Source: a virus. Taken from it: a DNA stretch of 64,000 bases. Positions 1 to 64,000 of this stretch are shown piece after piece. Made by a program: the position numbers and the translations under genes. Every line of letters starts with the position of its first letter. The stretch's first letter is position 1. The stretch spans positions 16,674-80,673 of IMG/VR virus record IMGVR_UViG_3300046459_000436; one strand, given 5' to 3'. A model generated the notes under the pieces. That model made no database searches, had not been told where the DNA came from, and was given only the letters and a program-made list of their open reading frames with translations.

Positions 1-815
1 CTCTGCACGCCTTCGGATTGGTACAGCGACAGGGCGCCTTGGTCGGCGGCGGTGGTCATGGCCCAGTCGACAATGAACGCGACTGATTCCACGTCCGTGC
101 CGGTGAGGACGTTCATCGCGTCCTCAATCATCTGGTCGCGGCTGGCACCGTCCTCGGCCCCTTGCGCGAGTATCCGACCGAGGTCTGCCGCGGCCCGGTC
201 GATAGTGCGGCCGAGCCAGCCGCCCGTGTCCGCCCAGATCTCGTCGAGGCGTTCCAGGGACTGGTAGGCGTCGCCGAAGGCGATGTTCCAGTCGAGGCCG
301 ATCCGGTTGGCGCGTTCGGCGGCGATGGCGACCGCGTTGACCATGCCCTCCGCCCGGCCGGCTGCGATGGCATTCCTCAGCGCGGTGCGCAGGGCATCCC
401 ATCCGGCGCCGGCTGCGTCGGCGATTGCGTGCAGCATGGCTTTGGCGGCTTCGAGTGCTTCAGTGCGGATGCTGGGCTTGCCGTGGTCGGCTTCGGTGAG
501 TCCGGCCTGCTGCCGGAACCGGTCAACCACGGCGGCGACCGCGTCCCGGCCGATGAGGTCGCGCCACGCATCGGCCACGAATGGTACGTGCTTGGCCTGC
601 TGCTCCTCGCGGCGTTGGAACAGTAGCGCCCACATGCCTTCGAGCTTGCCGAGGTCGATGGTGACTTCGAGGATGCGCGGGTCGTCAGCGTGCTCGATGG
701 CGAGCGCCACGGCTGCGGTGGAAGCGCGCCGCACGCGGTTCGTCATCGGCCCCCCGGAGACGGCCCAGCCTGCAGCGAACGCCTCGCGGGCGAAGCCCTC
801 AATGGGGTGCGGCAT
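1..815 (-). CDS. MuF-like minor head protein (3' end beyond window)
   Basis: Reading the minus strand from an ATG at 815 gives an uninterrupted frame of about 271 codons that runs off the left edge, so the C-terminus is missing. A good ribosome site (AAGGGGGG) sits just upstream. The product is alpha-helical and soluble, with no signal peptide or membrane segment. Its place shortly after portal, and its visible end (the region around DWAMTTAADQGALSLYQSEG), resemble the helical N-terminal part of Mu gpF-type minor head proteins, which bind the portal inside the capsid. Family assignment is inference from context and general look; a scaffold or protease role is possible. Confidence 0.6.
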   Translation of the reverse strand, partial: MPHPIEGFAREAFAAGWAVSGGPMTNRVRRASTAAVALAIEHADDPRILEVTIDLGKLEGMWALLFQRREEQQAKHVPFVADAWRDLIGRDAVAAVVDRFRQQAGLTEADHGKPSIRTEALEAAKAMLHAIADAAGAGWDALRTALRNAIAAGRAEGMVNAVAIAAERANRIGLDWNIAFGDAYQSLERLDEIWADTGGWLGRTIDRAAADLGRILAQGAEDGASRDQMIEDAMNVLTGTDVESVAFIVDWAMTTAADQGALSLYQSEGVQ

Positions 816-867
816 GGGCACCCCCCTTCAGCGCCAGGATTGGAGACCCAAGAGGAAAGCAACGCCC

Positions 868-1647
868 TCATGGCTTCTGAGGCGAAGCCTGCCTCCGGGC
901 TCGCGCCCGCTCCCGCAGGCAGGTTCGGCACTTGCGGCTGGGAGTCTTGCCATTACCGCTTCGCTCGATCACGGTATTTGCCTCGTCATAGGGGTGACCC
1001 TGAGGGCAGTGTGTCTTCCGCCCTGGCCGCCCCTGTGCGCGCCACTCTGCCCACCACTTTCGTTTCGCCTCTGCGACCTTCGCCCGCGAGGACGCGTTGG
1101 TCATCGGCTGAAGTGCGCGCGCCTTGGCTGCTTTGCTCAGCTTGCCCCGGGTCTCGTCCGAGGTGATGCTTCCCGCCGCTCGCCAGTCTGCCCAGCGTTT
1201 CGTCGTGGCCTCCGAGACCGCCTTCCGTGTGTTCGCTGGAATCGTCTTGCCCTTGTGCACGCGACTGACGGCCTGGCGCCGGACGGGGTCTTTCATCCGT
1301 TCGAGGGCGGCCTGCCGAATCCGCTCTCGGGTTTCGGGGGATGCGATGCGCCCCAGGGTTCCAGGGCCGCCATCAGTCGCGTTGGTCAGGCGAGCGCCCT
1401 GAGCTCTGTACGTGGTGATCCATCGCCGCTCGGCTTCTCCGTGGCTCTCGATCGGAACGATCTCAATCTCCGTCATGACTGGCGAGACACCGACTTTGAG
1501 CAATGAGCGGATCCACCGGCTCTTGTAGTCCTGGCGCCCAGTATCGGAGATGTGCCCTCGAAGCCGCTCGGCGAGCGAGCGTGTTGTGACCCCGACGTAG
1601 CGAACTTCACCGTTACGAGGGTCACTCAACGTGTAGATCCAGGCCAT
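868..1647 (-). CDS. GIY-YIG homing endonuclease
   Basis: About 259 residues. The N-terminus has the GIY-YIG core (WIYTLSDPRNGEVRYVGVT then a catalytic-type Arg in SLAERLRGH), followed by repeated NUMOD-like basic helices (SPETRERIRQAALERMKDP; ANTRKAVSEATTKRW; SDETRGKLSKAAKARA) and a C-terminal Cys/His cluster (CPQGHPYDEANT ... CRTCLRERARAR) that looks like a zinc-binding DNA contact module. This is the usual layout of free-standing phage homing endonucleases. It sits between portal and the MuF-like gene, a typical intergenic invasion site. Start chosen at 1647, directly before the GIY motif; an ATG at 1665 is an alternative and would lie inside the palindrome at 1663-1682. Confidence 0.85.
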   Translation of the reverse strand: MAWIYTLSDPRNGEVRYVGVTTRSLAERLRGHISDTGRQDYKSRWIRSLLKVGVSPVMTEIEIVPIESHGEAERRWITTYRAQGARLTNATDGGPGTLGRIASPETRERIRQAALERMKDPVRRQAVSRVHKGKTIPANTRKAVSEATTKRWADWRAAGSITSDETRGKLSKAAKARALQPMTNASSRAKVAEAKRKWWAEWRAQGRPGRKTHCPQGHPYDEANTVIERSGNGKTPSRKCRTCLRERARARRQASPQKP

Positions 1648-1662
1648 CCGCTCATGCACGTC

Positions 1663-1682
1663 CATGTACATCAATGTACATG
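1663..1682. promoter_or_regulatory. TGTACA palindromic operator
   Basis: Perfect inverted repeat CATGTACAT-CA-ATGTACATG holding two TGTACA cores (1665-1670 and 1675-1680). It lies between the divergent homing endonuclease and the antitoxin-like gene. TGTACA is the known core bound by YefM-type antitoxins at the E. coli yefM-yoeB operator, so autoregulation of the antitoxin gene, with side effects on the endonuclease, is the natural reading. Confidence 0.7.
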
Positions 1683-1708
1683 AGTGGCTCTCTCTGTACT
1701 CTGGCGTT

Positions 1709-1903
1709 ATGAAGGAAGAACCAGTCGAGATGAGTACCGCTGAAGTTCGCACGAACCTTGCGGACGTGGTCAACGCGGCAGTCCGAAACCGGATCACTTT
1801 CGTGACCAGTCGCGGGCGCCGCGTGGCGGCGGTTGTCCCGCTATCCATCGCCGAGGAGGCAGTGGAACGCGAAGACGGGGGCCCTAGCCGACCCGCTTCT
1901 TGA
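1709..1903 (+). CDS. Phd/YefM-type antitoxin (orphan)
   Basis: 64 residues: MSTAEVRTNLADVVNAAV is the classical Phd/YefM N-terminal DNA-binding segment, followed by the typical beta strand TFVTSRGRRVAAVVPL. It is the only plus-strand gene in the head module, divergent from the homing endonuclease. No RelE/YoeB/Doc-like toxin gene follows; its end overlaps the small minus ORF after portal. Start taken at the ATG at 1709, 27 bases after the TGTACA operator; no clear Shine-Dalgarno, so translation may be leaderless. Probably autoregulatory. Whether it neutralises a host toxin or only regulates transcription cannot be told from sequence. Confidence 0.8.
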   Translation: MKEEPVEMSTAEVRTNLADVVNAAVRNRITFVTSRGRRVAAVVPLSIAEEAVEREDGGPSRPAS

Positions 1904-1979
1904 TGAGCGGCAGCACATCCTTGGCGCGCAGCGGATGGTTCGGAGGATCGGGCGGCAGCGGTTCAGGCGGCACGCTCAT
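1884..1979 (-). CDS. 31-residue ORF overlapping the portal end
   Basis: A proline-rich start (MSVPPEPLPPDPPNHP) followed by a short basic tail ending KKRVG. The ATG at 1979 has a very strong ribosome site (CCAGGAGGTGTCG) inside the end of portal, so translational coupling is expected. It stops 20 bases before the 3' end of the antitoxin gene on the other strand. It may be a genuine short phage gene or the surviving N-terminus of a head gene cut off when the endonuclease/antitoxin unit inserted. Confidence 0.5.
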   Translation of the reverse strand: MSVPPEPLPPDPPNHPLRAKDVLPLIKKRVG

Positions 1980-3528
1980 CGACACCTCCTGGCAGCGTGG
2001 CCAGCGCCTCCCGCAGCCGAGCCCTGTACCGGGCATGCAGCGCCTCGACGGGCGGCTCCTTCTCCGGCTCAGCTGGCTCCTCGGATTGCCCTGGGGGCGC
2101 CTTGCCCGCGAACGCGGCGAGCTGGGGCGGCACGGGGGCGGGCTCGGGCTTCTCCACCGCGATCGGCTCGCCGTGCTCTGGCGCAGCTGGCTCCAGAGCG
2201 GTGCCGCGGAGTCTGTTGGCGATGAACGCCTTGGATGCGGCATCCATGTCGGCCCACTTCACCAGGTTGGTGCGGTCGATCAGGACCGGCTGGTCGCCGC
2301 CGTCGACAGGGGGTTCGCCGATGTCGGCTCGGGCCCGGTTGAGGGTCCATTCACCGTTGCGGATCCGCATGTCACGGATGTCCTCAACGGTCTTGGAGTC
2401 ACGCATGTCGACATCACGGAACTTGAGCTTCCAGCCTTCGACGCCGAAGCCGTTCTTCGCGAGGTGGAAGTTCAGGGCCTCCAGCACCAGTTCGGCCAAC
2501 GGCTGGCATGTGTTGACCATGAACGTGCGGTCCTGCGCCTCGCCGGTGCCGCCGCCGAGGTTCCCGGACTCGATGATGCCGACCTTGGATGGCGGAACCC
2601 CGTAGGCGGCGATGATCTCGTCGCGCTTCTGGTTGAGGAACTGCAGGTAGTCCATGGTGCGGGACTGCGACAGTTCGTTGACGCCGGCGCCGCCCTTGGT
2701 GTTGATCGGGTTGCCGATGTTGCGCGGGCCGATGTTGCGCTGCTGGTACTGGGCGTTCCACCGGTTGATGTCCGACGGGGAGGCGCCCGCCGGGTGGTCC
2801 ACATGGAGGACCGGGGGGCAGCCCTTCCGGAAGATCTCCTTCGAGGTTGCTGCCGAGAACAGCCAGGACACGATCGGCAGCATCGCCGCCTGCGTCGGGC
2901 TGACACCGAACACCCCGGACCGCGGCGAATCCAGCGAAATGTGGATGACGTCGCGCGGCTCGAACGTCGCCCGCTGGCCGAGTTCGGTGACCTGCACGTA
3001 GCTGGTGATCGTGCCATGTTCGTCGGCGATCGGCAGCATGCTCGGGCAGTCCAGCGAGTACAGGGCGACCGGCTGCTGGCCGAGCCAGACGACCTCGATG
3101 AACGCGTCACCGAACACGAGCAGGTCGGTGATGACGCCGCGGAGGATCTGCCGGACATTCTCCCGCGGGTTGCAGTAGGCCAGCATCCGCTCCAGCAGGA
3201 GCACCTGCTGTGGCTTGTCCGGCTGCTCCTCGTCGCCCTCACCGTTGTCGTTGTCCCAGTCGGTGACGAGGCCGCCCGCAGTGATGGTGCGCGCGATGGC
3301 GTTCACGGATGCCCACGACCAGGGACAGGCGAGGTACGCCTCGTAGAGCTGGTTCAGCATCGATCGGCGGTCGGACTGGGTGGCTGCGCCGATGCCCTGA
3401 TTGGACTCGGTCAGGCCACCCGGGCTGATGCCGTACTCGAAGCCCGAACGCTCCGGGAGCTTCGCCGGGGCCGTCTCCAGCACCTCGGTCTCCGACCGCA
3501 GACTGTTCCACCAGGTGCGCAGACTCAC
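1963..3528 (-). CDS. Phage portal protein
   Basis: 521 residues, normal for HK97/SPP1-like portals. The portal forms the dodecameric ring at the capsid vertex through which terminase pumps DNA. Visible hallmarks are an N-terminal region with SWASVNAIARTITAGGLV, a central domain with WLFSAATSKEIFRKG, and GVPPSKVGIIESGNLGGGTGEAQDRTF typical of actinophage portals; the C-terminus is Pro/Glu-rich. GTG start at 3528 overlaps the terminase stop by GTGA, so the two are translationally coupled. The next gene overlaps its 3' end. Confidence 0.9.
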   Translation of the reverse strand: MSLRTWWNSLRSETEVLETAPAKLPERSGFEYGISPGGLTESNQGIGAATQSDRRSMLNQLYEAYLACPWSWASVNAIARTITAGGLVTDWDNDNGEGDEEQPDKPQQVLLLERMLAYCNPRENVRQILRGVITDLLVFGDAFIEVVWLGQQPVALYSLDCPSMLPIADEHGTITSYVQVTELGQRATFEPRDVIHISLDSPRSGVFGVSPTQAAMLPIVSWLFSAATSKEIFRKGCPPVLHVDHPAGASPSDINRWNAQYQQRNIGPRNIGNPINTKGGAGVNELSQSRTMDYLQFLNQKRDEIIAAYGVPPSKVGIIESGNLGGGTGEAQDRTFMVNTCQPLAELVLEALNFHLAKNGFGVEGWKLKFRDVDMRDSKTVEDIRDMRIRNGEWTLNRARADIGEPPVDGGDQPVLIDRTNLVKWADMDAASKAFIANRLRGTALEPAAPEHGEPIAVEKPEPAPVPPQLAAFAGKAPPGQSEEPAEPEKEPPVEALHARYRARLREALATLPGGVDERAA

Positions 3529-5038
3529 GGGACGTTCACCGTCCCCCCAGCGCGCGGCGCCTCATCGTCATCGAACCACCAGGCGTCGTCGCTCGGCGCA
3601 GACTCGGACGGGCGCACGGCCATCGTCGGCCCGAGCGGCTTCAGAACCTCCGTGGTGGCGACCGGGGCTGCGTCGTCGAGGATGACGAACTCTGGGCCGG
3701 AGCCAAGGTTGGACAGGAGGTACCTGACCGCGTCGGCCAAGTGGTCATCTGCGGTGGTGTCGGCGTCTTCCGGGTCACCCTTGGTGGCGTGCGGCAGATC
3801 CGACAGTTCCCGGTAGAGATCGGGGCACGTCGTGAAGATGTGCATTTTCGGGCAGGTGTCCCAGCCCTGCGCCCGGTGATGCGGGCAGGCCGGCGCCTCG
3901 GCAAGGTAGGAACGCACCCGCTGCCAGCCGATGACGCGGGAGCCCGCTCCCTTGCCGGCCTGGGCCAGGTGCACTCCGTTGTCGGCGTACACCGCGGCAA
4001 TGGGCTTCGCATCGCCGCGGGTGGCCCACATCGCGTCATCGGCGTACCGCACGGCGATGTGTTCGCCGTGCGCTTCGGCCGCGAGGATGCTCTGGGCCTG
4101 CTCCGCTTCGCCGACTCCGCGCCGGTAGATCTCGCGGTAGACCCAGACGCGACCGTCTTCGTCGACGGCAGCCCATAGGACTGCCCAGGGGGCTGCGAAG
4201 CCCCAGTCGATGCCGTTGTATCGCTTCCACGTCGCGGGCAGTGCGATCGGCTCGATGACGTGCCGGTCGCGCTTGAGTTGGAACATCTGGCCTTGGAACA
4301 CGTCCCAGTCCCCGTCCAGGAATGCGGCCCGCAACTTTTCGGGCAGCGCCTTGAGGTCGGCGGCGTATTCAGGGTTGACGTGGGGGTTGTCGGACAGCTT
4401 CGACGGGATGAAGCGCACCGTGCGCCCGCGCTCATCGACGATGACCTTGCTGCCGTAGCCAGTGGGCTTGATGTAGCGGGTCTTCACCGCGCCGTGGCCC
4501 GGGCCGCCCGGGTTGGTGCCGGAGCGGATGCCGAGAACGGGGATGTCGCGGCGTCCGGACCGCAGCCGGGATTCGAGGAAGCTGCACACGTCGGGTGGGG
4601 TGAGGGTCCGCTCGTCGAAGATAAGCAGCTGGTACTGGCCGCCCTGCCTGCGGGTGGCGTCCTGGACGGTCTCGGCGTACCGAAACATGATCAGGCTGCC
4701 GTTGGGGAACCGGAGCTCGTACTCGGTGCCGTTCCAGCGGGCCCCGAGGTCTTTGGCGAAGTTGAGGTTCACCAGTTCGGCGATCAGTGACTCTTTGAGT
4801 TCGCCGTAGGTGCGGCGGAAAGCCCCGACGCGCAGCCCCGGGTAGCGGACGCATTCCCGGATGGCGTGCGCTGTCAGGGCCCGGCTTTTCCCCCGCCCGC
4901 AGCGCCGCCGAACAGGACGTCGAACTCTTCTGCACTGTGGAAGGTCAGCTGCTTCGGGGTGGGGGTGTAGCCGAGGGCGCCGAAGACGTCCTGTGGGGGT
5001 GCTTCCAGCATCTGGGCGGCGAGGATGAGGGCGTCCAC
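3525..5038 (-). CDS. terL: Terminase large subunit, -1 frameshift in Walker A
   Basis: ATP-driven packaging motor and headful or cos nuclease. From GTG 5038 (ribosome site GGAAGGGGTGAG) the frame reads normally to FGGAAGGGK (residues 43-51) and then stops at 4874-4876 after 54 codons. The -1 frame from the AGC at 4886 continues as SRALTAHAIREC to 3525. Joined, they give a canonical P-loop GGAAGGGKS, Walker B LLIFDE (about residues 138-143) and RuvC-like nuclease acidic residues in GIDWGFAAPW and TADDHLADAV, about 505 residues in all. The join falls on G GGA AAA (4886-4892), a textbook -1 slippery heptamer, but a lost A in the run would look the same. A frame open from 5045 with a nonsensical Arg-rich N-terminus also spans the region and is not the real product. 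Confidence 0.85.
4886..4892 (-). promoter_or_regulatory. Candidate -1 slippery heptamer in terL
   Basis: On the minus strand the zero-frame codons are GGG GGA AAA GCC; the heptamer G GGA AAA fits X XXY YYZ. A -1 slip gives GGG AAA AGC CGG, exactly restoring the Walker A Lys-Ser. Zero-frame translation would end 4 codons later. Could also be a one-base deletion in an A5 run, real or from sequencing. Confidence 0.5.
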
Positions 5039-5055
5039 GACTCACCCCTTCCTGA

Positions 5056-5769
5056 TCAGACGGCGCGGAGGTGGCGGGCGGCGACTTGCTTGGCCGCGGC
5101 AGCAGATTCGCCGGTCACGCCAGCCGCGATGAGTGCCGCGTCGATGGCCCGCAACACGGTCTCGGCCTGCTTCTCGGTGATTGCCGCAAGCCTCTCGTCG
5201 ATGTTGAGGCGGGCGATGTTGGCGAGCAGCGTTCCGGCCTGGTTGACGGCCCTTTCGTACAGGGCGACTTCGGCGCGGAGTTGCTCGCCGGCGCCGCCCT
5301 TGTAGCGGATCTCTTCGAGTTCGTTGACCTTGGCGCCGAGCGCGTTCTTGAACGCGAGCACTTCGCCGGCCAGCTCGCTGAGTGCGGTGAGCGGGTTGTC
5401 GACGGGGCTGGCGCCGATCTGGACGAGCAGCTTGTTGGCTTCCTTCATCAGCTTCACCTCCGCGATCCGCTTCCCCGCCGCTTTGAGGGCGTTGGGTGCT
5501 TTGCCGCCGTGCGCCTTGCAGACGTCCTGGCCCCTCATGGCCCAGTCGGTGCAGCGCTGTCCGGCGTTGTGGCCGTTCTTGGTGGTGCCGGTGCAGCGGC
5601 GTTCGTCGGGTGCTTTGCCGATGAGGCCTTGGCCGCTGTGGCGGTGGCAGACGTCGTAGCCGGGGAGCGTCCAGAGTTGGCAGCGTCCGCGGGGGTCGCC
5701 GCTGGGGTAGAGGCGGATGGTGACGCATTGCCGGTCTGGGGGTGGCTTGCGGGGGCCGGGGTGTGCCAT
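5056..5769 (-). CDS. Terminase small-subunit-like protein
   Basis: 237 residues, starting at the ATG in TAATG that overlaps the stop of the upstream gene. The first 90 residues hold Cys/His pairs (CQLWTLPGYDVCHRH, CTGTTKNG...CTDWAMRGQDVCKAHGG) and the signature HGGKAPNALKAAGKRI, a motif common in actinophage terminase small subunits; the rest is helical and coiled-coil-like. Directly precedes the large subunit with an 18-base gap. Role inferred: recognises packaging DNA and recruits the motor. Confidence 0.6.
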   Translation of the reverse strand: MAHPGPRKPPPDRQCVTIRLYPSGDPRGRCQLWTLPGYDVCHRHSGQGLIGKAPDERRCTGTTKNGHNAGQRCTDWAMRGQDVCKAHGGKAPNALKAAGKRIAEVKLMKEANKLLVQIGASPVDNPLTALSELAGEVLAFKNALGAKVNELEEIRYKGGAGEQLRAEVALYERAVNQAGTLLANIARLNIDERLAAITEKQAETVLRAIDAALIAAGVTGESAAAAKQVAARHLRAV

Positions 5770-6194
5770 TAGCTGCTGCCGGTAGTCCAGTGCTCGGGCA
5801 GCAGTGTCGGCGCGGGTTCGTCGACCGGCTCGGGCTCGGGCAGCGGCTCGGGGGTGCAGTCGCAGCCGGGCAGGTCCGCCTCGCTGGGCGCGGTGCAGCT
5901 GCTGGCATGGACGAGTGCGGCGGCGTCCATGTCGATGGCGTGCGGTCCGCAGGCGAAGACGGGGGTGGTGCACTCGTCGGCCTGCGGGAGCGGCCCGAAC
6001 TCGGGGGCCGGGAGCTGAGGGTCGGCGAGGAGGAGCCGCTCGTCGCGCTTCTCCTGTTCGAGGGTGATGTGCGCGGCGAGTTCGGCGGCGGTGAGGCGCC
6101 GCCGCCACTGCACGATCGCCCGGTCGGGGCAGGCCGTACACCGCGGGCCTGCGGGCGCCGGAGCGGCCGGGGTGGTGTCGGCAGGGCTGGTCAC
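5769..6194 (-). CDS. Cys-rich phage hypothetical protein
   Basis: 141 residues from GTG 6194, preceded by a strong GAGGAGG. The N-terminal part has CTACPDRAIVQWRRRLTAAELAAHITLEQEKRDERLL, the middle has several Cys (ECTTPVFACGPH; SSCTAPSEADLPGCDC) and the tail is Pro/Glu-rich. Likely a small metal-binding protein made with the packaging operon. No specific function recognised. Confidence 0.65.
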   Translation of the reverse strand: MTSPADTTPAAPAPAGPRCTACPDRAIVQWRRRLTAAELAAHITLEQEKRDERLLLADPQLPAPEFGPLPQADECTTPVFACGPHAIDMDAAALVHASSCTAPSEADLPGCDCTPEPLPEPEPVDEPAPTLLPEHWTTGSS

Positions 6195-6204
6195 AGTGGC
6201 CTCC

Positions 6205-7611
6205 TCAGGCGGGTTCTGGGCCGATGTTTTCGAGGCGCATCCGGAACGGGTACGCGGTGTGGGCGTAGACGACTCCGGAGCCGGTGCCCTGATGCGCGAG
6301 CGCGACCGTGATGCTGCCCGCGTTGATGTGACCGGCGCCGATGGTGAACATCTCAACCATCTCCTCGTACCCGAAGCTCAGCGAGGGGTACAGGTCCGGG
6401 TCACCCTCAGGGAGCGGGCTGCTGGTGAAAGTGCCCGCATAGATGGCGATCGCGCCCGCGTTGTCGAGGAGGGCCCAGTCGAGGAAGTGGCTGCCGGCGC
6501 GCATGAACCCGCCGTGGACCTTGATGCGGTCGCCCACGGCCGCCGCAATCGAGCACTGGAGCTTCGTCGTCGCGGACGTCTGCACGATCGTCCACGACGC
6601 GGCCGACGGCAGGCCACCCAGGTTGTCGTCGGTGATGCGAATGCTGGCCGTGCGGGTCGATGAGCCGCCGCTACCAGCCGGGAGCACTACCCCGATCGTC
6701 CCGGATGCCGACCGGACCTTGAGGACGCCACCCTCGACGTACAGCACTGCACCGGAGGCCGGGTTGCTGTCGGGGATAGTGACTGCATTGGGCAGGTGCA
6801 GCACCCCAACGCCGTCGCCGAAGTCGACACCGCCGTCCAGCAGCGCAACATTTGGCCCGCTCACCCCGGGCTGCACGCGCAGCACGGGCACACCGTTGGC
6901 CGAGTCGACGAGGTACAGGTCTTGTGACCCCGGACCCATCTGCCAGGCCCAGCGGTCCACGCCCGCCGTGCGCAGTCCGTAGGCGGCGTAGTTGGTGGTG
7001 GCACCGCGGTCCACGGCGTTGATGGCGGTGCCGGTGGAGTCGACGATGAGGTTGCCGTCGGCGATGGTGACGGTGCCATCGACGGTGCCGCCGCCATCAA
7101 GGGCGAGGTACTTCGCGGCGGCGTCAGCTTCGGCAGCCGCTGTTGCGGCATCGGCCTTCGTCGTGGCATCCGTGGCCGCCGCGCCGATCGCCGCCGCCTG
7201 GGCCGCGTTGGCCTTGGTGGTCGCATCGGTTGCCGCTGCGGCCTGGGCGGCTGCTGCTGCTCCGATCGTGTCGAAGTCGCCGACCGCATGGGTGGCCGCC
7301 GTGCCGAGACCGAGGTTGTTGCGGGAGGTAGTGGCGTTCTGTACGTCGGACAGATTGTTCTCGGCGAGCAGCGCCCCGACCGTGCCGGCGCCGCCGAAGG
7401 TGATGCCGCTGCCTGGCCATGCTCCGGCCACCTTGGGTCCGTACAGGACTGCAGAGGTGGGGTAGTTGGTGGTGTCCACGTAGTAGTCGCCGTCGATGCC
7501 CGTACCGCTGGACGGTGCGCCGACGCCGTTGAGAACGGCGTTGCCGCGCGGGCCTTGTGCGCCGGTTGGGGAGACGATGACGGTGGGTGGGGCGGTGACG
7601 GTGACGGGCAC
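6205..7611 (-). CDS. Tail fibre / receptor-binding-like protein
   Basis: About 468 residues. Starts with a short collagen-like stretch (GAQGPRGNA), then a Gly-rich linker and NNLSDVQNATTSRNNLGLGTAA, the repeat seen in trimeric tail fibres of many phages, an Ala-rich coiled segment (about 130-175) built from near-repeats of AAATDATTKA, and a beta-rich C-terminal head. Start at GTG 7611 gives the best spacing from AGGAGGTG; a GTG at 7617 is possible. It is unusual to find a fibre gene upstream of terminase; it could instead decorate the head. Confidence 0.75.
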   Translation of the reverse strand: MPVTVTAPPTVIVSPTGAQGPRGNAVLNGVGAPSSGTGIDGDYYVDTTNYPTSAVLYGPKVAGAWPGSGITFGGAGTVGALLAENNLSDVQNATTSRNNLGLGTAATHAVGDFDTIGAAAAAQAAAATDATTKANAAQAAAIGAAATDATTKADAATAAAEADAAAKYLALDGGGTVDGTVTIADGNLIVDSTGTAINAVDRGATTNYAAYGLRTAGVDRWAWQMGPGSQDLYLVDSANGVPVLRVQPGVSGPNVALLDGGVDFGDGVGVLHLPNAVTIPDSNPASGAVLYVEGGVLKVRSASGTIGVVLPAGSGGSSTRTASIRITDDNLGGLPSAASWTIVQTSATTKLQCSIAAAVGDRIKVHGGFMRAGSHFLDWALLDNAGAIAIYAGTFTSSPLPEGDPDLYPSLSFGYEEMVEMFTIGAGHINAGSITVALAHQGTGSGVVYAHTAYPFRMRLENIGPEPA

Positions 7612-13885: not shown

Positions 13886-13980
13886 GACGGGCTCCTTTCG
13901 GGTTGGTCCGGGGTGATCCCCGGTTTTTGGGTGTGCTGAGGGAAGCCCCCGGCGGGGGCTGGTGGTTTGTGATGGTTTGT

Positions 13981-14149
13981 GGGGCGTACACCCCCCGTAC
14001 AGTGACCGCTATATGCCGGTATGCGGGGCGTACAGTCGGGGCGGTCAGCCGTACAGGTGGACGGCTCCAGGTGGCCGGTGAGCGGGGGGTGTACGGGTCA
14101 CATACCGGCATCTACCTGGGCAAACAGCCGCCCTGTACGGGGGGTGTAC
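13981..14149. repeat. Cluster of inverted repeats after the TraB-like gene
   Basis: GTACACCCCCCGTACA at 13986-14001 recurs as its exact reverse complement TGTACGGGGGGTGTAC at 14134-14149, and a 12-base part (CGGGGGGTGTAC) recurs at 14083-14094. ATGCCGGTATG (14013-14023) pairs with CATACCGGCAT (14101-14111). GGGGCGTACA is repeated directly at 13981-13990 and 14025-14034. No gene lies here. Position beside an FtsK-type transfer gene suggests a clt-like transfer locus or a regulator operator set. Confidence 0.7.
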
Positions 14150-14155
14150 GGCCTA

Positions 14156-16407: not shown

Positions 16408-16947
16408 TTAGAAGTTGGTGAGGGTGTTGGCGGCAGCGGTGACGGCGGAGTTGGTGAGCTGCTTGATCAGCGGGCCGACGAACGTCCCGTCCAGGAGCAC
16501 CCCGAGCGCGACGAGCGTGATCGCCCAGCTGGCGGCGACCTTCCGGCCCTTGATGCCGATGAACACGATCACGCCGATCAGCATCAGGCCGACGATGCCA
16601 ACGCCGATCGTGCCGCCGCTGACGTTCGCCGGCGTGACGTTGTTGACGGCCGGGGTGACGTTCGTGTCGACCACGGGGGCGACGGACGGCTGGACGGCGG
16701 CCACGGTGACGACCGCAGCCGAGTGGTCGGCGGTGGCCGTGTAGTGGGTGGTGGGCAGGCCCCGGACGGTCATGGCGCGGGTGCCGTCGGCGAGGCGGAC
16801 GCTGGTGTCGGTGGCGGCCTGGACGGAGGTCACGGTCGCGGTGTGCTGGGTGGCTGCGGCGACCGCCGGGGTGGCGATCCCGAGCGCCGCCAGAGCAGCA
16901 CCCGACAGGGCCACGGAGCGGACGATACGGATGGACTGGCGGGACAT
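16408..16947 (-). CDS. Exported membrane protein of the transfer module
   Basis: 179 residues with an N-terminal signal sequence (VRSVALSGAALAALGIATPAVAA), a Thr/Val-rich extracytoplasmic stretch, and two membrane helices (GTIGVGIVGLMLIGVIVFIG; WAITLVALGVLL). The position directly upstream of the TraB-like gene suggests a Spd-type spread function, inferred only from context. Confidence 0.65.
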   Translation of the reverse strand: MSRQSIRIVRSVALSGAALAALGIATPAVAAATQHTATVTSVQAATDTSVRLADGTRAMTVRGLPTTHYTATADHSAAVVTVAAVQPSVAPVVDTNVTPAVNNVTPANVSGGTIGVGIVGLMLIGVIVFIGIKGRKVAASWAITLVALGVLLDGTFVGPLIKQLTNSAVTAAANTLTNF

Positions 16948-19587: not shown

Positions 19588-19664
19588 TTCGGCTCCTCGA
19601 TGACTGGCGGCGGCGGAACGGGCGTCTCCTGGTTGGCGCCGTAGTCATCAAGCGGGGTGCTCAC
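19584..19664 (-). CDS. 26-residue peptide
   Basis: VSTPLDDYGANQETPVPPPP then VIEEPK, from GTG 19664, preceded by GGGAGG. Short but flanked on both sides by 4-base overlaps, as the other genes here, which supports translation. Confidence 0.4.
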   Translation of the reverse strand: MSTPLDDYGANQETPVPPPPVIEEPK

Positions 19665-25633: not shown

Positions 25634-25655
25634 GCTACCCCCGAGCGCAGCAAAG

Positions 25656-50944: not shown

Positions 50945-51250
50945 TCAGGCGGCGGTGCGGGCCGGCTTGCGGCTGGCCTGCTGAGGCACGGTGGCCTTGC
51001 GGGGTCGGCTGCGGGTGCGGCGTATGGACTTGGCGCCGCCGTGGCGCAGCTCGTAGATGGCCGCCCGGGTGGCGCGGTCGGTGACGACCCTGAGGCCGGG
51101 GGTGCCGGGGCGGCCGAGGGCCTTGAGGGCCTCTCGGACGGCCCGGACGCTGCACTTGAGGACGAAGGCGGTTTCCCGTCCGTCCATGTACTCGGCGTTG
51201 AGGTCGGTGGGGGCGACCGGGGTCTCGTACTGGGCGTACTTGCTGGACAT
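50945..51250 (-). CDS. Small DNA-binding-like protein
   Basis: 101 residues from ATG 51250. EYMDGRETAFVLKCSVRAVR EALKALG suggests a short helix-turn-helix, followed by a very basic C-terminus (KSIRRTRSRPRKATVPQQAS RK). Position after the Cro-like gene suggests an early regulator. Inference only. Confidence 0.55.
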   Translation of the reverse strand: MSSKYAQYETPVAPTDLNAEYMDGRETAFVLKCSVRAVREALKALGRPGTPGLRVVTDRATRAAIYELRHGGAKSIRRTRSRPRKATVPQQASRKPARTAA

Positions 51251-51251
51251 G

Positions 51252-51503
51252 TCACTTCCTTTCGGGCTGGGGGGTGTCTCCTCGGTGGGGGGCAAGGAGG
51301 TCGTCGTAGGTCGCTTGGAGCTCGCTGCAGAGCCGGGCGTATTTGGCCGGTCCTAGCTGTTTGCGTCGGCCGTTTTCGAGCTTTCGGAGGTAGCTGGCGC
51401 TGATCCCCACGGCGTCTGCGAGCTGCTGTGTGGGCAGACCGGCTCGCATACGTCTCTTGCGGATTGCGTCCCCGTCCACCTCGACCGTGGTCGTTTGGGG
51501 CAC
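51252..51503 (-). CDS. Cro-like XRE repressor
   Basis: 83 residues from GTG 51503. IRKRRMRAGLPTQQLADAVG ISASYLRKLENGRRKQLGPA is a canonical XRE HTH. First gene of the long early minus operon and divergent from the repressor at 51682. Its promoter is leaderless (see 51501-51538). Expected to act like lambda Cro. Confidence 0.8.
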   Translation of the reverse strand: MPQTTTVEVDGDAIRKRRMRAGLPTQQLADAVGISASYLRKLENGRRKQLGPAKYARLCSELQATYDDLLAPHRGDTPQPERK

Positions 51504-51538
51504 GTCTACAACCTAGGCGCTAGTTAGGCAGTTGTCCA
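51501..51538 (-). promoter_or_regulatory. Leaderless early promoter
   Basis: On the minus strand TGGACA (51538-51533), 17-base spacer, TAGGTT (51515-51510), and the GTG start at 51503-51501 where +1 would fall. A leaderless transcript is typical of Streptomyces repressor genes. Confidence 0.65.
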
Positions 51539-51681
51539 GCACTAGGTCAGCATTAGTCGGACACAGTTCTGCAATAGTGCGACGTTTGTGCAGGTGGGGG
51601 CGATGTTGCAGAAGGGTCGATCTTCGGCCGACCTGCCGAACAGTCCTGGCTAGTCCCGCACAGTCCTGTCATGATGTGCGC
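51504..51681. promoter_or_regulatory. Immunity operator region
   Basis: About 178 bases without a gene. The TAG-centred half sites CTAGTTAG, ACTAGGTC, ATTAGTCG, AATAGTGC and CTAGTCCC recur, and ACAGTCCTG occurs twice, 20 bases apart (51640-51648, 51660-51668). These are good operator candidates for the two XRE proteins. Confidence 0.5.
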
Positions 51682-52113
51682 GTGGCGACACCCGACCTCC
51701 AGCGGCTAGCGGCCTTCGTAGAGAAGCGCCGCCGAGACCTCAACCTGTCCGTAGTCCGCGCTGCCCGCGCATCTGGCATGAGCAGAGACACCTGGTCGCG
51801 CGTCGAAAACGGCCAGCCGGCTCGCCTGATGAACTACGACAAGATCGAAGACGTCCTCCAGTGGGCGACCGGGAGCTGTCAGAAGATCATGGACGGCGGC
51901 GAGCCCATAGAGGCCTCTTCCGTGAGCGATGAAGCACCCATTGAGTTCGCCGCCGTACCGCCCGAGGCGGTGGAGGAGAAGTGGCGTCAGGCCGTGCAGG
52001 GCGCAATGATCGCCGGGACGGATCTGACGGCCGACAAGATCCGTGACGTGACGGAGCGAGCCCTCGCCGAGGCGCGCAGGAACGGGCTGTTCCCTGGAAT
52101 CAAGGAAGATTGA
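51682..52113 (+). CDS. XRE repressor (CI-like)
   Basis: 143 residues from GTG 51682. RLAAFVEKRRRDLNLSVVRA ARASGMSRDTWSRVENGQPA is an XRE HTH; the C-terminal half is acidic and helical. No peptidase (LexA-like) domain is visible, so induction would not be by classical RecA cleavage. Divergent from the Cro-like gene: the phage immunity repressor by position. Confidence 0.75.
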   Translation: MATPDLQRLAAFVEKRRRDLNLSVVRAARASGMSRDTWSRVENGQPARLMNYDKIEDVLQWATGSCQKIMDGGEPIEASSVSDEAPIEFAAVPPEAVEEKWRQAVQGAMIAGTDLTADKIRDVTERALAEARRNGLFPGIKED

Positions 52114-52262
52114 CGCCACTTCCGTACAACCATTCGCACGTTACGCATTTGTGACAACCCGAATCGTAACCTCACCCGAACAACCCCATCACAACCAGCC
52201 ACACACGTGGCACTATCGGTCAAACCACTTGGGGGGCACTCCCATCCCTACGGGAGGGCCAT

Positions 52263-52463
52263 ATGGGAAAGTTGCTCACAGCCGACCTCGGTACCGGCAT
52301 CATCGGATGGCGGGGCGAGATCAACGGGAGCATGGTGTGTGTTGCCACACCCCGGGTCCTGCACGACCCCGCCGCATGGCGGAAAATGCGCGATCTGGTC
52401 AAGCTGCAGGGTGGCGACTGCGACGGCTGTCAAGGATGCCCGCTCGGGCAGGGAAACAGCTGA
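52263..52463 (+). CDS. Small hypothetical after repressor
   Basis: 66 residues from ATG 52263 (GGGAGGGCC). GKLLTADLGTGIIGWRGEIN GSMVCVATPRVL then CDGCQGCPLG. Cys-rich C-terminus. Unknown; spaced between repressor and integrase, it could be an excision or regulator factor. Confidence 0.55.
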   Translation: MGKLLTADLGTGIIGWRGEINGSMVCVATPRVLHDPAAWRKMRDLVKLQGGDCDGCQGCPLGQGNS

Positions 52464-52530: not shown

Positions 52531-53889
52531 ATGCCGTATGTAGAGGTGCGCGGGGGCAGTATCCGCGTCAAGTGGTGGGGTGGCGAGTACAAGACCGCCG
52601 AGGATGGTACGCGGACGAAGAAGTACGAGTCCGCCAGCGGCCCCGAGCCCGGCGTGAAGTTCCGGACCGAGCGGGAGGCCGAGGACTTCGGCAAGGACCG
52701 CGAGTACGAGGTGCGGCACGGCAAGCACATCCGGCGCGTCGACAGCAAGACGCTCATGGAGTCGTACTGCTGGGTCTGGTTCGACGCCGCGGAGGAGCTC
52801 CAGCCGAACAGCGTGAAGAGCTACCGTTCCATGCTGAACGCCGCCATCGTGCCCTACTGGGGCGGCAGGCCGGTCGGCGAGATCACACCCCCCGAGTACG
52901 ACGCGTGGAAGAAACAAATCAAGCAGTCGTACTCGGAGAACTACGTCAAGGGGCTCCTCGGTCTGTTCCGTCGGCTGATGGAAGACGCCGTGGTCAAGTA
53001 CAAGTTGCGCCCCGAGACGCCTGTCGTCGAGCAGCGGCGCCGCGGCCAGTACGTGAAGCGCAACACCCGCCGCGTGAAGCGGATCCTGCCCATCGAGGTC
53101 GTGCACCACCTGGCGACGAACGCCTACACGGTCTGGGGCTTCACCGGCTGGACCTACATCTGGACGGTGGGCTTCACGGGGATGCGCCCGCCCGGAGAGA
53201 TGTACGGCCTGCAGCGCGGCTTCGCCTCGCCGAACTGGCCGGCCTGCGACCCGGACCCGGACCGGCGCGAGGACGCGCTGGAGCGCTACGAGAAGATGCA
53301 CGCCCTGCGGGTGCAGCACCAGACGTACAAGGCGGGCGGCCAGTCGATCCTCGCAGGCCCGAAGTACGGCTCGTACCGGACGCTGGTGATCCCGCCGTTC
53401 CTGCACGACATGCACTCCGCGCTGCTCGCCTCCCACGACTCCCCGTGGGTGTTCACGTCCACGTCCGGCAAGCCCATGCTGGGCTCGCAGTTCCACCGGA
53501 GCTACTGGTGGCCGATCCGGGACGGCGCCCCCGCGCGACGCGGAAGGTTCGAGCGGCCTGCACTTCTGCCCGTGGAGGCGATGGCTGGTCAGGATCTGTA
53601 CCGGCTCCGGCACTGGATGAAGGAGCTCATGGACGAGCCCGGTGCGGATATTGCGAGGGCGGCGGTCGAGGGGCGCATGGGCCACGAACTGCCCGGCGTG
53701 GAGGGCACGTACAGCTACGTCACGCCTGCCATGGAGCGGCGGATCGTCGACTACCTGCAGGGCGTGTGGGAAACCTTCTGGGCGTCGGGGCCCTGGTGGG
53801 CTCCCCCATTTCCCAAACCTCTCCCAGATGGGCAACGGGCGGTAAATTCGCCCCTGTTCAGCGGGCTGCCGATCATTGGTGAGCATTGA
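52531..53889 (+). CDS. Tyrosine integrase 1
   Basis: 452 residues. N-terminal arm-type region, SAM-like core-binding domain (SVKSYRSMLNAAIVPYWGGR PVGEI; YVKGLLGLFRRLMEDAV), catalytic domain with Arg in TGMRPPGE, LRHW (HxxR-like box II), GRMGH and nucleophile Tyr in TYSYVTP. Catalyses site-specific integration and, with a directionality factor, excision. Followed by a 550-base non-coding region that is the natural place for its attP. Confidence 0.85.
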   Translation: MPYVEVRGGSIRVKWWGGEYKTAEDGTRTKKYESASGPEPGVKFRTEREAEDFGKDREYEVRHGKHIRRVDSKTLMESYCWVWFDAAEELQPNSVKSYRSMLNAAIVPYWGGRPVGEITPPEYDAWKKQIKQSYSENYVKGLLGLFRRLMEDAVVKYKLRPETPVVEQRRRGQYVKRNTRRVKRILPIEVVHHLATNAYTVWGFTGWTYIWTVGFTGMRPPGEMYGLQRGFASPNWPACDPDPDRREDALERYEKMHALRVQHQTYKAGGQSILAGPKYGSYRTLVIPPFLHDMHSALLASHDSPWVFTSTSGKPMLGSQFHRSYWWPIRDGAPARRGRFERPALLPVEAMAGQDLYRLRHWMKELMDEPGADIARAAVEGRMGHELPGVEGTYSYVTPAMERRIVDYLQGVWETFWASGPWWAPPFPKPLPDGQRAVNSPLFSGLPIIGEH

Positions 53890-58871: not shown

Positions 58872-59915
58872 ATGGACAAGGAACTCGAACCGATCGTGGA
58901 AGCCGAACTCGTCCTCGACGAGGAAGCGTCACGCGAACGCGACCACCACCTGTCCGGCGAGACGATCGCCGACCTGAAGCGGGCCACCGCCGCAGCCACG
59001 GACCGCGCATACGACCGATGGTGGAAGATGGCCCTCGCCTGGTGCGAGAGCGAGCAGCGCACCCCGCTCCCCATGACCGCAGAGACCCTCGCCGAGTTCA
59101 TCGGCCACCTCAAGCGATCCACATCGCCAAAGACCGGCAAGCCCTGGGCGCCGGCGAGCCTTAACCAGGCCGTGGCCGCCGTCCGTACCGCCCACTTCCG
59201 CGCTGGGTTCGAAGGTCGGCCGAATACTCGTGCCGCAATCGACCTCATCAAGGTGCACCGCCAGGACCGCGCGAAGGACGGCTGGCGAGCCCGGCGGGCC
59301 AACCCCGTCACCCTCGAAGTGCTGCGCCTTCTCCTGGCCCGCTGCGATCAGAACGCGCTCAGCGGCCGACGGGATGCCGCCGTCCTTGTGCTCGGGTACG
59401 GGCTGATGGGGCGCCGGTCGGAGTTGGCGGCCTGTCGCATCGAGCAACTCACCCTCGGCGATGCATGGCTGACCGTCTTCATCCCCATGTCCAAGACCGA
59501 CCAGGACGCGCAGGGCGAAGACGTCGACATCCCCCGCACCCTGGCTCCCGACATCGACGCCGTGGCCATCGTGCGCAGCTACCTGGATGGACTCGGCGAG
59601 CGTGGAATCACCGATGGTCCGCTACTCCGAAGCATCGACCGATGGGGGAACCTCGGCGAGAGCATCTCAGGAGAGGGGATCAGTGACATCGTCGTGAAGC
59701 TCGCACGCGAGGCGAATCTGACGGACGCAGAACGGACCACCGCGCACGGCCTCCGGGCCGGCGGACCGACCGATGCAGCCGAGCGTGGTGTCCCCATCCC
59801 CTTCATTGCCGAGCATGGCCGCTGGAGCAAGAACTCCACTCAGGTGCTGACCTACGTGCGTCCTGCTGACCGGCGCCGGAACAATCCGCTTCTGCCGCGC
59901 GACAACCGCGCGTAA
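58872..59915 (+). CDS. Tyrosine recombinase 2 (XerD/phage type)
   Basis: 347 residues. SAM-like N domain (DRAYDRWWKMALAWCESEQR; SLNQAVAAVRTAHFRAGF), catalytic Arg in MGRRSELAACR, HxxR in HGLRAGGPTDAAERG, HGRWSKN and nucleophile Tyr in LTYVRPAD. All boxes present. A -10-like TAGAAT at 58836-58841 lies just upstream. Probably resolves multimers of the plasmid form or is a second integrase. Confidence 0.85.
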   Translation: MDKELEPIVEAELVLDEEASRERDHHLSGETIADLKRATAAATDRAYDRWWKMALAWCESEQRTPLPMTAETLAEFIGHLKRSTSPKTGKPWAPASLNQAVAAVRTAHFRAGFEGRPNTRAAIDLIKVHRQDRAKDGWRARRANPVTLEVLRLLLARCDQNALSGRRDAAVLVLGYGLMGRRSELAACRIEQLTLGDAWLTVFIPMSKTDQDAQGEDVDIPRTLAPDIDAVAIVRSYLDGLGERGITDGPLLRSIDRWGNLGESISGEGISDIVVKLAREANLTDAERTTAHGLRAGGPTDAAERGVPIPFIAEHGRWSKNSTQVLTYVRPADRRRNNPLLPRDNRA

Positions 59916-59932: not shown

Positions 59933-60121
59933 GTGGATGGCCGCTGGCGCTCCCACAGCATGCGGCGAGGATTCGTCACCGCCGCCCGAGCCGCCGGAAA
60001 GGACCTGGTGGACATCGGTCGGCATGGCGGATGGGCCGACGGGTCCAAGGCCCTGCTCGCGTACATCGAGGAAGACGACGGATGGGGCGAGAACAACCCG
60101 CTCATCGGCATTGGCCTCTGA
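59933..60121 (+). pseudogene. Orphan tyrosine-recombinase C-terminal fragment
   Basis: 62 residues: RSHSMRRGFVTAARAAGKDL, IGRHGGWADGSKALLAYIEE then NPLIGIG. These are the HxxR, H/W and Tyr boxes of a second recombinase but the first Arg box is missing. It lies 18 bases after recombinase 2 and is not a plain copy of that gene. Likely the remnant of a replaced recombinase. Confidence 0.7.
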
Positions 60122-62341: not shown

Positions 62342-62372
62342 ACGCTCTCCGAGCCGCTTGCATGGGGCGGGA

Positions 62373-62687
62373 TCAGGCGCCCGAGGGGCGGGCGGTCACC
62401 AGCGAGTCCTGCGCCTTGCGGGCCACACCGAGCGGCTGCCATGCCCCGTAGTGCACGGCGATCGCGGTCACGAGCGACACGATCCAGAACAGGACCCCGA
62501 CGCCGAGCTGGTAGTGGTCACCGGCCGCGGCCCACTCGTTGAGGAAGCCGTTCGCGGCGGTGAACACGATGAGCAGCAGGCTCTTGAGGGCGGAGCTGGT
62601 GAGTCTGGTGGTGACGAGGCCGACGAGGATCGGCAGGACGGTGGAGATGAGCAGGCCGATCACGGCCTGAGTGGTTGAGACGCCCAT
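62373..62687 (-). CDS. Holin-like membrane protein
   Basis: 104 residues with three hydrophobic segments (AVIGLLISTVLPILVGLVTT; LKSLLLIVFTAANGFLN; LGVGVLFWIVSLVTAIAVHY). Size, topology and position right after the endolysin gene fit an actinophage holin that releases the amidase to the wall. Confidence 0.75.
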   Translation of the reverse strand: MGVSTTQAVIGLLISTVLPILVGLVTTRLTSSALKSLLLIVFTAANGFLNEWAAAGDHYQLGVGVLFWIVSLVTAIAVHYGAWQPLGVARKAQDSLVTARPSGA

Positions 62688-62712
62688 GATGGCACTCCAG
62701 TTCGGTGAAAGA

Positions 62713-63519
62713 TCAGGCGGTGACGGTGAAGCCGTGGCGCTTGCCGAGGCGGGTCAGGGATGCGATGCCCGGGTAGCCGTCGGCTGCGGTCCCGGTGTAC
62801 GAGCCGCCGGCCTTGGACTTCTGCCACGCCGCGTAGGCAACCTTGGTCTTGGTGCCGAGGCTGCCGTCGACCCACTTCTTGGCGAGGAGCCCTTCGGCAC
62901 GCAGGGCCTGCTCCAGCAGGAGCGCCTCCGCCTTGTACGTGACGTGGCCCTGTGCCCCTGCTGCGTCGCGCTTCATGGCGGTGACCAGGTGGGCGACAGA
63001 CACGCTCTTGTGGGCCGCCGGGGGCGCCACGAGGGCGGTGGCGGCGGCCATGATGTCGGCGCGCTGCGCCTTCCGCAGGTCGCCGGGGCAGGCGGGGTGT
63101 CCGCCCCAGGCCTTGCCGCCGATGCCGTGGTAGGTCAGGCCGTGGGCGGTGGTGGAGTCGACGACGACCAGCGGCCAGCCGAACTCGGTGTGCCCCCAGG
63201 CGTAGATCTTGGCGACGCCCTCGATCTGCGCGGCGGTGAGCGGCTCCGACGGGTAGCCCTCCGTCTCGACGCTGGCGTAGTACGGATTGCCTGCGGCCTG
63301 AGTCCAGGCGTAGTCGACGCCGGTATTCACGTACTGCTCGATCACTCCGGTCTTGGAGACCCAGAAGTCGGAGCTGGCCTGTGAGGAGGCCTTGTTGAAC
63401 CAGCCGAACGGCGAGTTGTTGCCGGCCTGGACGTGCAGGACGAGGCCGCGGTGTTCCTTCACGCCGTTCGGGTGGAAGTTGACGACGGGGCGCCAGGTGG
63501 CGCCAGGCATGCGGGTCAT
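62713..63519 (-). CDS. Endolysin: N-acetylmuramoyl-L-alanine amidase
   Basis: 268 residues. Amidase_2 catalytic domain (VVNFHPNGVKEHRGLVLHVQ AG with metal His29; GHPACPGDLRK with His141 and CPG), then a peptidoglycan-binding domain (AEALLLEQALRAEGLLAKKW VDGSLGTKTKVAYAAWQ). Zinc-dependent cleavage of the peptide from MurNAc. ATG at 63519 is 3 bases from the upstream stop; the holin gene follows. Confidence 0.85.
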   Translation of the reverse strand: MTRMPGATWRPVVNFHPNGVKEHRGLVLHVQAGNNSPFGWFNKASSQASSDFWVSKTGVIEQYVNTGVDYAWTQAAGNPYYASVETEGYPSEPLTAAQIEGVAKIYAWGHTEFGWPLVVVDSTTAHGLTYHGIGGKAWGGHPACPGDLRKAQRADIMAAATALVAPPAAHKSVSVAHLVTAMKRDAAGAQGHVTYKAEALLLEQALRAEGLLAKKWVDGSLGTKTKVAYAAWQKSKAGGSYTGTAADGYPGIASLTRLGKRHGFTVTA

Positions 63520-63522
63520 GGG

Positions 63523-64000
63523 TCACAGCCCTTTCTGGACGGGCACCGTGGCAGCGACGTTGTTGTCGTGCGCCCACGCCTTCATCAGAGCCAGCGCCTG
63601 AACCAGGCGAGGATCCGCAGGAGGAGTGGGAACGGGGAGAGGGGATGGCGGCTCCGGCGTGGGCTCGGGCTGCGGGAGGGGGTTGGCCTCGCCGGTGAGG
63701 TCGGTGAATGCCGCCCCGAGCGCGTAGAACGACGGCAGGCCCGTGAAGTAGGCGCCCGCCTTCTGGACGCCGTCCTGGTCGAGGGCGACCCAGCCCTCAT
63801 CGACGTACTTCTTCCAGAACGCCCACGTCACCCGGGTGCGCGCGCCCCAGGTGATGATGTCGACGCCGGCCGTGTCGTAGCCGACGGCCATGACGCAGTG
63901 GCCGCCCTCGATGCGGGCGCCCTTGACGACGTCCCAGACCTGGCCCGCGTTGAACTGGTCCATCGCGGAGTCGGGGAAGTTCATGCCGATGTTCAGCGAG
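63523..64000 (-). CDS. Papain-like peptidase-like protein (5' end beyond window)
   Basis: The frame runs off the right edge; the visible 159 codons include GGHCVMAVGYDTAGVDIITW G, a His-centred block like that of papain/C39-type cysteine proteases, then WAFWKKYVDEGWVALD, a Pro-rich linker and a short C-terminal helix. The catalytic Cys would lie beyond the window. May be a tail- or lysis-associated peptidase. Confidence 0.55.
   Translation of the reverse strand, partial: SLNIGMNFPDSAMDQFNAGQVWDVVKGARIEGGHCVMAVGYDTAGVDIITWGARTRVTWAFWKKYVDEGWVALDQDGVQKAGAYFTGLPSFYALGAAFTDLTGEANPLPQPEPTPEPPSPLPVPTPPADPRLVQALALMKAWAHDNNVAATVPVQKGL

Follow-up and report, generated by a model that had tools for sequence, protein, structure and literature searches.

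A probable temperate phage carrying a TraB-type conjugation operon between its terminase and early genes

Here we describe a 64,000-nucleotide stretch of viral DNA (64.0 kb; hereafter the window) that corresponds to positions 16,674-80,673 of the 80,673-bp IMG/VR record IMGVR_UViG_3300046459_000436. Its sequence points to a temperate tailed phage of about 80.5 kb, in what would be a Streptomyces-like host, carrying a complete TraB-type conjugation operon. We consider this reading likely, and the combination of phage and conjugation modules is real and probably functional; the element may spread in virions as well as through the mycelium, by direct transfer between cells. An initial annotation had placed phage and conjugative-plasmid genes in one replicon, and this combination was confirmed, with the genes located where it had put them. 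The conjugation reading rests on a gene order and homologues like those of the plasmid pSVH1, a block of repeats resembling a cis-acting transfer site (clt), selection on the translocase, a virion module and a closed record. We prefer the name temperate phage with a conjugation module to that of a proven phage-plasmid.

Passages of PMC4170104 and PMC3218068 describe how, in Streptomyces, a single FtsK-like protein, TraB, recognises 8-bp TraB recognition sequence (TRS) repeats in clt and moves double-stranded DNA. The operon of the window lies between the terminase and the early genes. From the regulators towards the terminase it comprises a GntR/UTRA protein, a UTRA-only protein, small open reading frames (ORFs), a ParB N-terminal-domain (ParB-N) protein, another small ORF, an SpdB2-like protein, a small membrane-type protein and a TraB-like protein; the order in pSVH1, whose TraB has been studied as a model, is GntR, small ORFs, SpdB2, a small ORF and TraB. 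The 742-aa TraB/FtsK-like double-stranded DNA translocase (14156-16384, minus strand), foreseen in the initial annotation, is established by a PHROG FtsK/SpoIIIE-like match (3e-25) and by homology to pSVH1 TraB (28.5% over 372 aa, E 2e-24 in a 9-sequence set). It has a hydrophobic stretch near residues 183-201, and visual inspection, helped by an alignment with pSVH1 TraB, suggests a motor and a C-terminal winged-helix-like region. A search of the whole plasmid collection with this protein found pSVH1 TraB again (E 9e-16) and matched 48 of 72,556 plasmid records, with 24-35% identity among the 40 matches listed; none of the 50,697 records of the phage collection matched.

The Spd-like membrane proteins of the initial annotation are also borne out. 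One is a 473-aa SpdB2-like spread protein (16968-18389, minus strand), which aligns with pSVH1 SpdB2 at 35% over 207 aa (E 2e-18, 9-sequence set); because pSVH1 SpdB2 itself has no Pfam match, the missing Pfam match of its counterpart here is uninformative. The other, a 179-aa protein (16408-16947, minus strand) without a family match, appears from position and sequence to be a spread-type membrane protein, and is kept next to TraB in the related viral records G001 (93%) and G002 (85%). A small ORF of the operon (18425-18625, minus strand) is likewise found in G001 (98%) and G002 (97%). The ParB-N protein (18779-19144, minus strand) has a weak PHROG match (5e-4) and relatives in ten plasmid records at E 1e-10. 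Four of these plasmids were opened; the relative lies in a GntR/DUF2637-type transfer operon in NBC_01353, NBC_01383 and NBC_01237, and elsewhere in NBC_01456. A partition role was set aside because three of the four relatives lie in tra operons (the exception being NBC_01456). Thus, the ParB-like domain reported initially is present, albeit by a weak match, but a partition system is not indicated, and the protein probably belongs to the tra operon rather than to a partition pair.

Small ORFs known from gene calls (19285-21063, minus strand) make up the promoter-proximal end of the operon. Divergent from it is a GntR/UTRA regulator (21759-22520, plus strand; Pfam). The initial annotation had spoken of GntR regulators in the plural; the second protein (21140-21757, plus strand) has a UTRA domain (1.2e-24) but no matched helix-turn-helix. 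The UTRA-only gene directly precedes the GntR/UTRA gene, and a similar tandem occurs in the relative G010. The translocase is under purifying selection, with a ratio of nonsynonymous to synonymous substitution rates (dN/dS) of 0.17-0.20 in three pairwise comparisons; values were 0.44 for the SpdB2-like protein and 0.59 for the small membrane protein (one comparison each), and 0.03-0.20 for the portal (three).

Directly 3' of traB lies a candidate clt (13977-14153), with seven CGTACA/TGTACG repeats in about 170 bp. Within 200 bp 3' of traB, seven copies are present in the window, six in locus L158 (from the same virus record as L006) and five in L005. In an unsupervised 6-mer scan the CGTACA block was the second strongest cluster of the window, behind the origin iterons; in pSVH1 the strongest cluster at both k lengths was the known TRS block (GACCCGGA), at the same place 3' of traB. 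To compare loci, we grouped translocases by sequence similarity into classes A-D, and scored 47 loci by whether the repeat block in the 200 bp 3' of the gene fell within the top 5% of windows of the locus. This was so for 13 of 15 class-A loci (median rank 0.6%), four of six in class C, one of two in class D and one of 24 in class B, for which 24 of the 34 known loci were scored. After collapsing near-duplicates (window/L005/L158; L105/L106; L159/L168), class A retained nine of 11. The motifs differ among lineages: GACACC (L105, L106) matches the clt repeat of pWTY27 and CGCACA (L167) that of pJV1, passages of PMC3583192 giving the pWTY27 repeat as TGACACC, within the TraA footprint, and the pJV1 repeat as CCGCACA. 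Clt-like repeats 3' of the translocase were not found for NBC_01353 in the locus test, nor for NBC_01238, G014 and G016 in the unsupervised scan, and the repeat motif of pAmyja1 is scattered over the whole plasmid. Among the sequences compared, clt-like repeats go with the translocase type. The CGTACA block is clt-like, conserved in relatives and adjacent to traB, and is a candidate binding site.

The portal, terminase, endolysin and holin genes named initially are all present by Pfam and PHROG matches; across portal, terminase large subunit (TerL), capsid, tape measure, holin and amidase, E-values range from 3e-8 to 1e-71. The portal protein (1963-3528, minus strand; Pfam Phage_portal 4e-30) matches 57 phage records, every one below 60% identity, and a single plasmid, pAmyja1, at 63%. 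TerL (3525-5045, minus strand; PHROG 9e-30) has phrog_2 as its best family, followed by phrog_979. The lysis region holds a holin (62373-62687, minus strand; PHROG 1e-15), an amidase endolysin (62713-63519, minus strand; Pfam 3e-8, PHROG 2.5e-19) and a gene that looks peptidase-like by eye (63523-64000, minus strand), which has no significant Pfam match and runs on over the record ends to L001:1-576. Outside the window, the remaining 16.7 kb of the record encode the major capsid protein (PHROG 1.5e-47), a conserved phage protein of 1,140 aa (9e-127) and the tape measure protein (1e-71).

The record appears to be closed. The 127 bp at its two ends are identical, and a single reading frame flanks the repeat on either side, which gives a unit of about 80,546 bp that is circular or circularly permuted; a terminal repeat of exactly 127 bp is typical for the k-mer assembly of a circle. 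Such a circular assembly could come from a plasmid, from a prophage that has excised, or from virion DNA that is circularly permuted. A Pfam scan of 48 of the roughly 138 candidate proteins of the record (the scope of all Pfam scans of the record below) recognised no housekeeping gene. With head and tail genes filling the remaining 16.7 kb and the record ends overlapping, no host genes lie beside the lysis or terminase genes, in agreement with the initial annotation. By megablast, the first 20 kb of the window had no match in the phage collection and short matches in only three plasmids. A tRNA scan of the window found none, and Rfam gave nothing at gathering score and one small RNA match below threshold.

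Several observations weigh against a conjugative function. The translocase misses Pfam FtsK_SpoIIIE, which pSVH1 TraB does match, and scores 29.9 bits against a cut-off of 800 for NCBIfam plasmid_TraB. Its structure prediction, from a 3-sequence alignment, was unusable (mean predicted local distance difference test score, pLDDT, of 36), and a PDB sequence search returned no match up to E 1. At k=8 the CGTACA block falls outside the six strongest clusters of the window, and shuffling the flank alone gives P 0.12-0.28 (not significant), so that the block is significant when set against the remainder of each element, not by flank shuffles; moreover, the 200-bp test was fixed once the first clusters were known, and some of its loci depend on one another. 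An integrated relative, G018, shows no class A-D translocase, so members of this phage family can do without the operon. Finally, relatives of the G010-type translocase occur in 89 of 50,697 phage records, all of them Streptomyces phages and all below 60% identity, and no SpdB2 or GntR homologue was found within 3-5 kb flanks in the Mildred21, Mischief19 and (unannotated) Mandalore loci.

These phage proteins raise the alternative that the TraB-like protein is a phage translocase serving the lytic cycle or superinfection control, with the operon otherwise passive. Mildred21 gp107 fits this view: it is encoded near the terminase, its C terminus can be aligned with the G010 type, and neither spread nor GntR genes are annotated around it. 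So does a weak repeat cluster in Mischief19 (top 2% of its short locus); phages of this kind we take to be lytic. However, no SpdB2 or GntR homologue was found in the 3-5 kb flanks of those loci, Mildred21 has no repeat block 3' of its translocase, and the window combines a full pSVH1-type operon and a clt-like block with a translocase matched by none of the phage records. On balance we regard this alternative as unlikely. Phage FtsK-like proteins without an operon do imply that a translocase alone is no proof of conjugation, and our claim rests on the whole operon together with the clt-like block. In the Streptomyces phage record L180 (MF155946.1), positions 4608-6425 encode such an FtsK-like protein, near the terminase and with a G010-like C terminus, and no spread or GntR genes are annotated. 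For comparison, pSVH1 TraB had weak matches in four phage records, and the pSLE1 translocase none in the phage collection. With a virus record of unknown host, one might suspect a chimera in which the assembly joined a phage to a conjugative plasmid, but this is very improbable: the combination recurs in G010, in the complete genome record pAmyja1, in G014 and in the isolate genome G017, and G001 has, among the shared early genes, a TraB that is nearly identical.

The conjugative reading gains breadth from the way the translocases are distributed. Beside one virion module, class A is found in the window and G017, class B in G014 and G016 (whose translocases match no PHROG and were assigned by similarity to the pSLE1/NBC_01238 type), class C in G010 and class D in pAmyja1. 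Twelve elements with this module were viewed over large stretches, and six have a translocase. In G021 a class-A gene lies about 40 kb from the portal, its relation to the virion module being unclear, and five have no class A-D translocase: G018, a whole integrated prophage, and the 28-96-kb contigs G011, G022, G023 and G024, some of them partial. The shorter viral records G003-G009, G012, G013 and G015 gave no match to the window translocase, the only query used for them.

Related operons also adjoin other virion types. In G001, counterparts of the window's TraB (95%) and small membrane protein (93%), with an SpdB2-like protein (39%), accompany a terminase of the phrog_9 type and another portal. 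With the SpdB2-like protein as query, 11 viral loci were found, all 11 with an adjoining translocase (class A in six, class C in five). One is G002; seven of the other ten have a phrog_9 terminase, one has a phrog_2 terminase whose frame holds one TGA, and two (37 and 22 kb) have neither. With the pSLE1-type class-B translocase as query, 34 viral loci were retrieved, pSLE1 and G014 included, and the pSLE1-type terminase lies within the locus in 27; this check was applied because IMG/VR may contain plasmids misjudged as viruses. The pSLE1-type terminase matches phrog_38 best and, more weakly, phrog_979, a family shared with the window terminase. Class-B translocases also occur outside phage-like elements: they match 74 plasmid records, many of which are 100-320 kb in size. 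The window, G001 and the pSLE1-type loci thus place transfer operons beside terminases of three best-match families (phrog_2, phrog_9 and phrog_38).

As judged from these loci, three features are novel: transfer operons adjoin terminases of three types, translocase types are swapped beside one virion type, and clt-like repeats go with the type of translocase. The literature matches listed, with subscription papers and preprints outside their scope, include no description of transfer operons across several actinobacterial phage lineages. We tentatively propose, with somewhat more doubt than confidence, that temperate phages of actinobacteria carry TraB-type operons as a portable module, in which the translocase and its matching clt would be exchanged as a unit and prophage DNA would move through and between mycelia without virions. 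The lone FtsK-like proteins of lytic Streptomyces phages may then be a reduced form of the same trick. If this is true, phages of filamentous bacteria have two transmission routes.

Gene content and order, homology, the repeat block and the selection on TraB would fit the following scheme. In the lysogen, the divergent GntR/UTRA proteins would repress the tra operon. On release, TraB hexamers would bind the CGTACA repeats that adjoin traB on its 3' side and drive the circular phage DNA, as a double strand, through a pore in the membrane into an adjacent hypha, and the SpdB2-like and small membrane proteins would spread it across cross-walls. Separately, the lambda O-type origin and the terminase, head, tail and lysis genes would yield virions. 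The dormant form would be either an integrated prophage, like G016, G017 and G018, or a circular plasmid, like pAmyja1.

The genes for replication and integration bear on that choice. A 308-aa lambda O-like initiator (38799-39725, minus strand; PHROG replication initiation protein 1.5e-18, O-like 2e-9) contains 22-24-bp iterons at 39180-39348, the probable origin of replication, and is followed by a DnaB-like replication gene (37483-38799, minus strand; Pfam/PHROG-type matches), which bears out the lambda-like ori of the initial annotation; such genes would suit lytic or plasmid replication alike. One tyrosine integrase (52531-53889, plus strand; PHROG integrase 8e-22) has homologues (36-39%) adjoining direct repeats in the integrated relatives G016 and G018, and a second tyrosine recombinase lies at 58872-59915 (plus strand; Pfam). 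Directly behind the latter, a 62-aa ORF (59933-60121, plus strand) is 67% identical over 61 aa to the C-terminal end of the NBC_01238 integrase, an arrangement that resembles either an attachment site within another integrase gene or what is left of one.

The dormant state has a nearly even chance of being a strictly integrative prophage whose transfer module resembles that of an AICE (actinomycete integrative and conjugative element) and which is never maintained as a plasmid; this is compatible with the conjugative reading. Such a prophage is favoured by the two recombinases, by the absence of ParA from the Pfam scan and by three relatives integrated between direct repeats of 18, 22 and 63 bp some 76-79 kb apart. 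G018 has 63-bp repeats 76.5 kb apart at the 3' end of a uppP-reading gene, with an integrase adjoining. In G016 an 18-bp repeat recurs at 77.8 kb inside a phoD-like gene, also with an integrase adjoining; an 18-bp repeat alone is weak because the comparison that gave it also produced another 18-bp match, in G017, that is probably due to chance, and the case for integration of G016 lies in one gene being readable on either side of the element. G017 has a 22-bp repeat, spaced 78.8 kb, at the 3' end of a regulator gene; its class-A translocase is intact and accompanied by SpdB2-like and GntR genes, and no homologue of the window integrases was found at its repeats. The names of these target genes are those that we presume from translations. 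Against strict integration, the record of pAmyja1, whose virion module is related, is that of a complete circular plasmid, and no phage attachment site (attP) was found in the window: against five Streptomycetaceae genomes, the sequence downstream of the first recombinase gave chance-level matches (best E 0.04) and that downstream of the second one weak 73-bp match (74%, E 4e-5). In G010 (L042), the DNA just after 3697, downstream of the integrase, reads by eye like the 3' end of an acyl-CoA dehydrogenase gene and is likely an attP.

An autonomously replicating phage-plasmid, as first proposed, is a possibility that we rate a little short of even. The circular assembly and the O-type origin with iterons speak for it, as do pAmyja1 (which belongs to a complete genome and carries an integrase as well), pSLE1, NBC_01238 and NBC_01353, all circular plasmids of comparable layout; the integrases, the lack of a ParA/ParB pair among the scanned proteins and the integration of G016, G017 and G018 in Streptomyces chromosomes speak against it. 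Of the initial proposal, the temperate phage with a Streptomyces-type conjugation operon therefore stands, but the plasmid state does not follow, given the integrases, the scan without ParA and relatives that are both integrated and plasmid-borne.

The Cro/CI-type switch reported initially is weakly supported, by one 111-aa regulator-like protein (51778-52113, plus strand; PHROG 6e-6) within a possible immunity or excision control region (50945-52463; weak). A RecT-family recombinase (43804-44892, minus strand) was recognised by Pfam. Among accessory genes, a GIY-YIG homing-endonuclease-like ORF (868-1848, minus strand; Pfam GIY-YIG 1.2e-6, PHROG homing endonuclease 1.4e-12) sits between a minor-head-like gene and the portal and has an 83% relative in L017 and L018. 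A TnpB-like ORF (23290-24975, plus strand; OrfB_IS605 2e-25, Cas12f1-like TNB 8e-21) is followed by a 243-aa ORF without a Pfam match (24991-25722). A SocA/Panacea antitoxin-like gene (1.5e-15) and a 156-aa ORF without a match (25894-26816, plus strand) form a possible toxin-antitoxin pair, and a family-2 glycosyltransferase (27048-28397, minus strand) has a 97% identical copy in G001.

Among known systems, the pSVH1 operon shares the gene order, TraB and SpdB2 homology and a repeat block 3' of traB, but belongs to a 12.7-kb plasmid without virion genes and has another repeat motif. The AICEs (pSAM2-like) combine an integrase with single-protein FtsK/TraB transfer and RepSA, RepAM or Prim-Pol replication, according to passages of PMC3218068. 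The window likewise has an integrase and a TraB-like protein, but the replication proteins recognised in it are O-like and DnaB-like (AICE-type Rep models were not searched individually). To our knowledge, AICEs carry no virion module. PhiNon1 of Nonomuraea gerenzanensis is described in part of PMC5431353 as a plasmid-phage both circular and integrated; likened here by description rather than by sequence, it differs in its 59 kb and its integration at tRNA-Val. The 92.5-kb circular pAmyja1 of Amycolatopsis japonica is close in portal (59-63%), TerL (71%) and capsid (64%), and has an FtsK-like translocase, GntR and a DUF2637-like protein just below the Pfam cut-off; its translocase is of class D and its host of another family. 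MOB-suite, as given in PLSDB, types NBC_01238, pAmyja1, pSLE1, NBC_01353 and pSVH1 all as non-mobilizable; with pSVH1 among them, this typing evidently misses TraB-type transfer.

The pSLE1 group (pSLE1, NBC_01238 and NBC_01353) consists of circular 86-93-kb elements with virion genes, GntR, integrases and a translocase resembling FtsK and type IV coupling proteins next to the terminase. It differs from the window in its best terminase family (phrog_38 versus phrog_2, both also matching phrog_979), its translocase (class B versus class A), the rarity of clt-like repeats 3' of that class (one in 24 tested of 34) and the ParA/ParB of pSLE1. Passages of PMC4487206 report synteny of pSLE1 with pZL12, ParAB and two integrases, and pZL12 is called a singleton in part of PMC7157519. 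The comparison with pZL12 made in the initial annotation is upheld by gene order, homology, the clt-like repeat block and selection; the terminase and translocase of the pZL12 group, judged against pSLE1 and not pZL12 itself, are not those of the window. If several virion types keep a working conjugation operon, a viral genome could be inherited, packaged and mated, and receptor limits need not bound its spread. The kind of element is known from pZL12 and pSLE1, and the lineage described here is a new and variant one.

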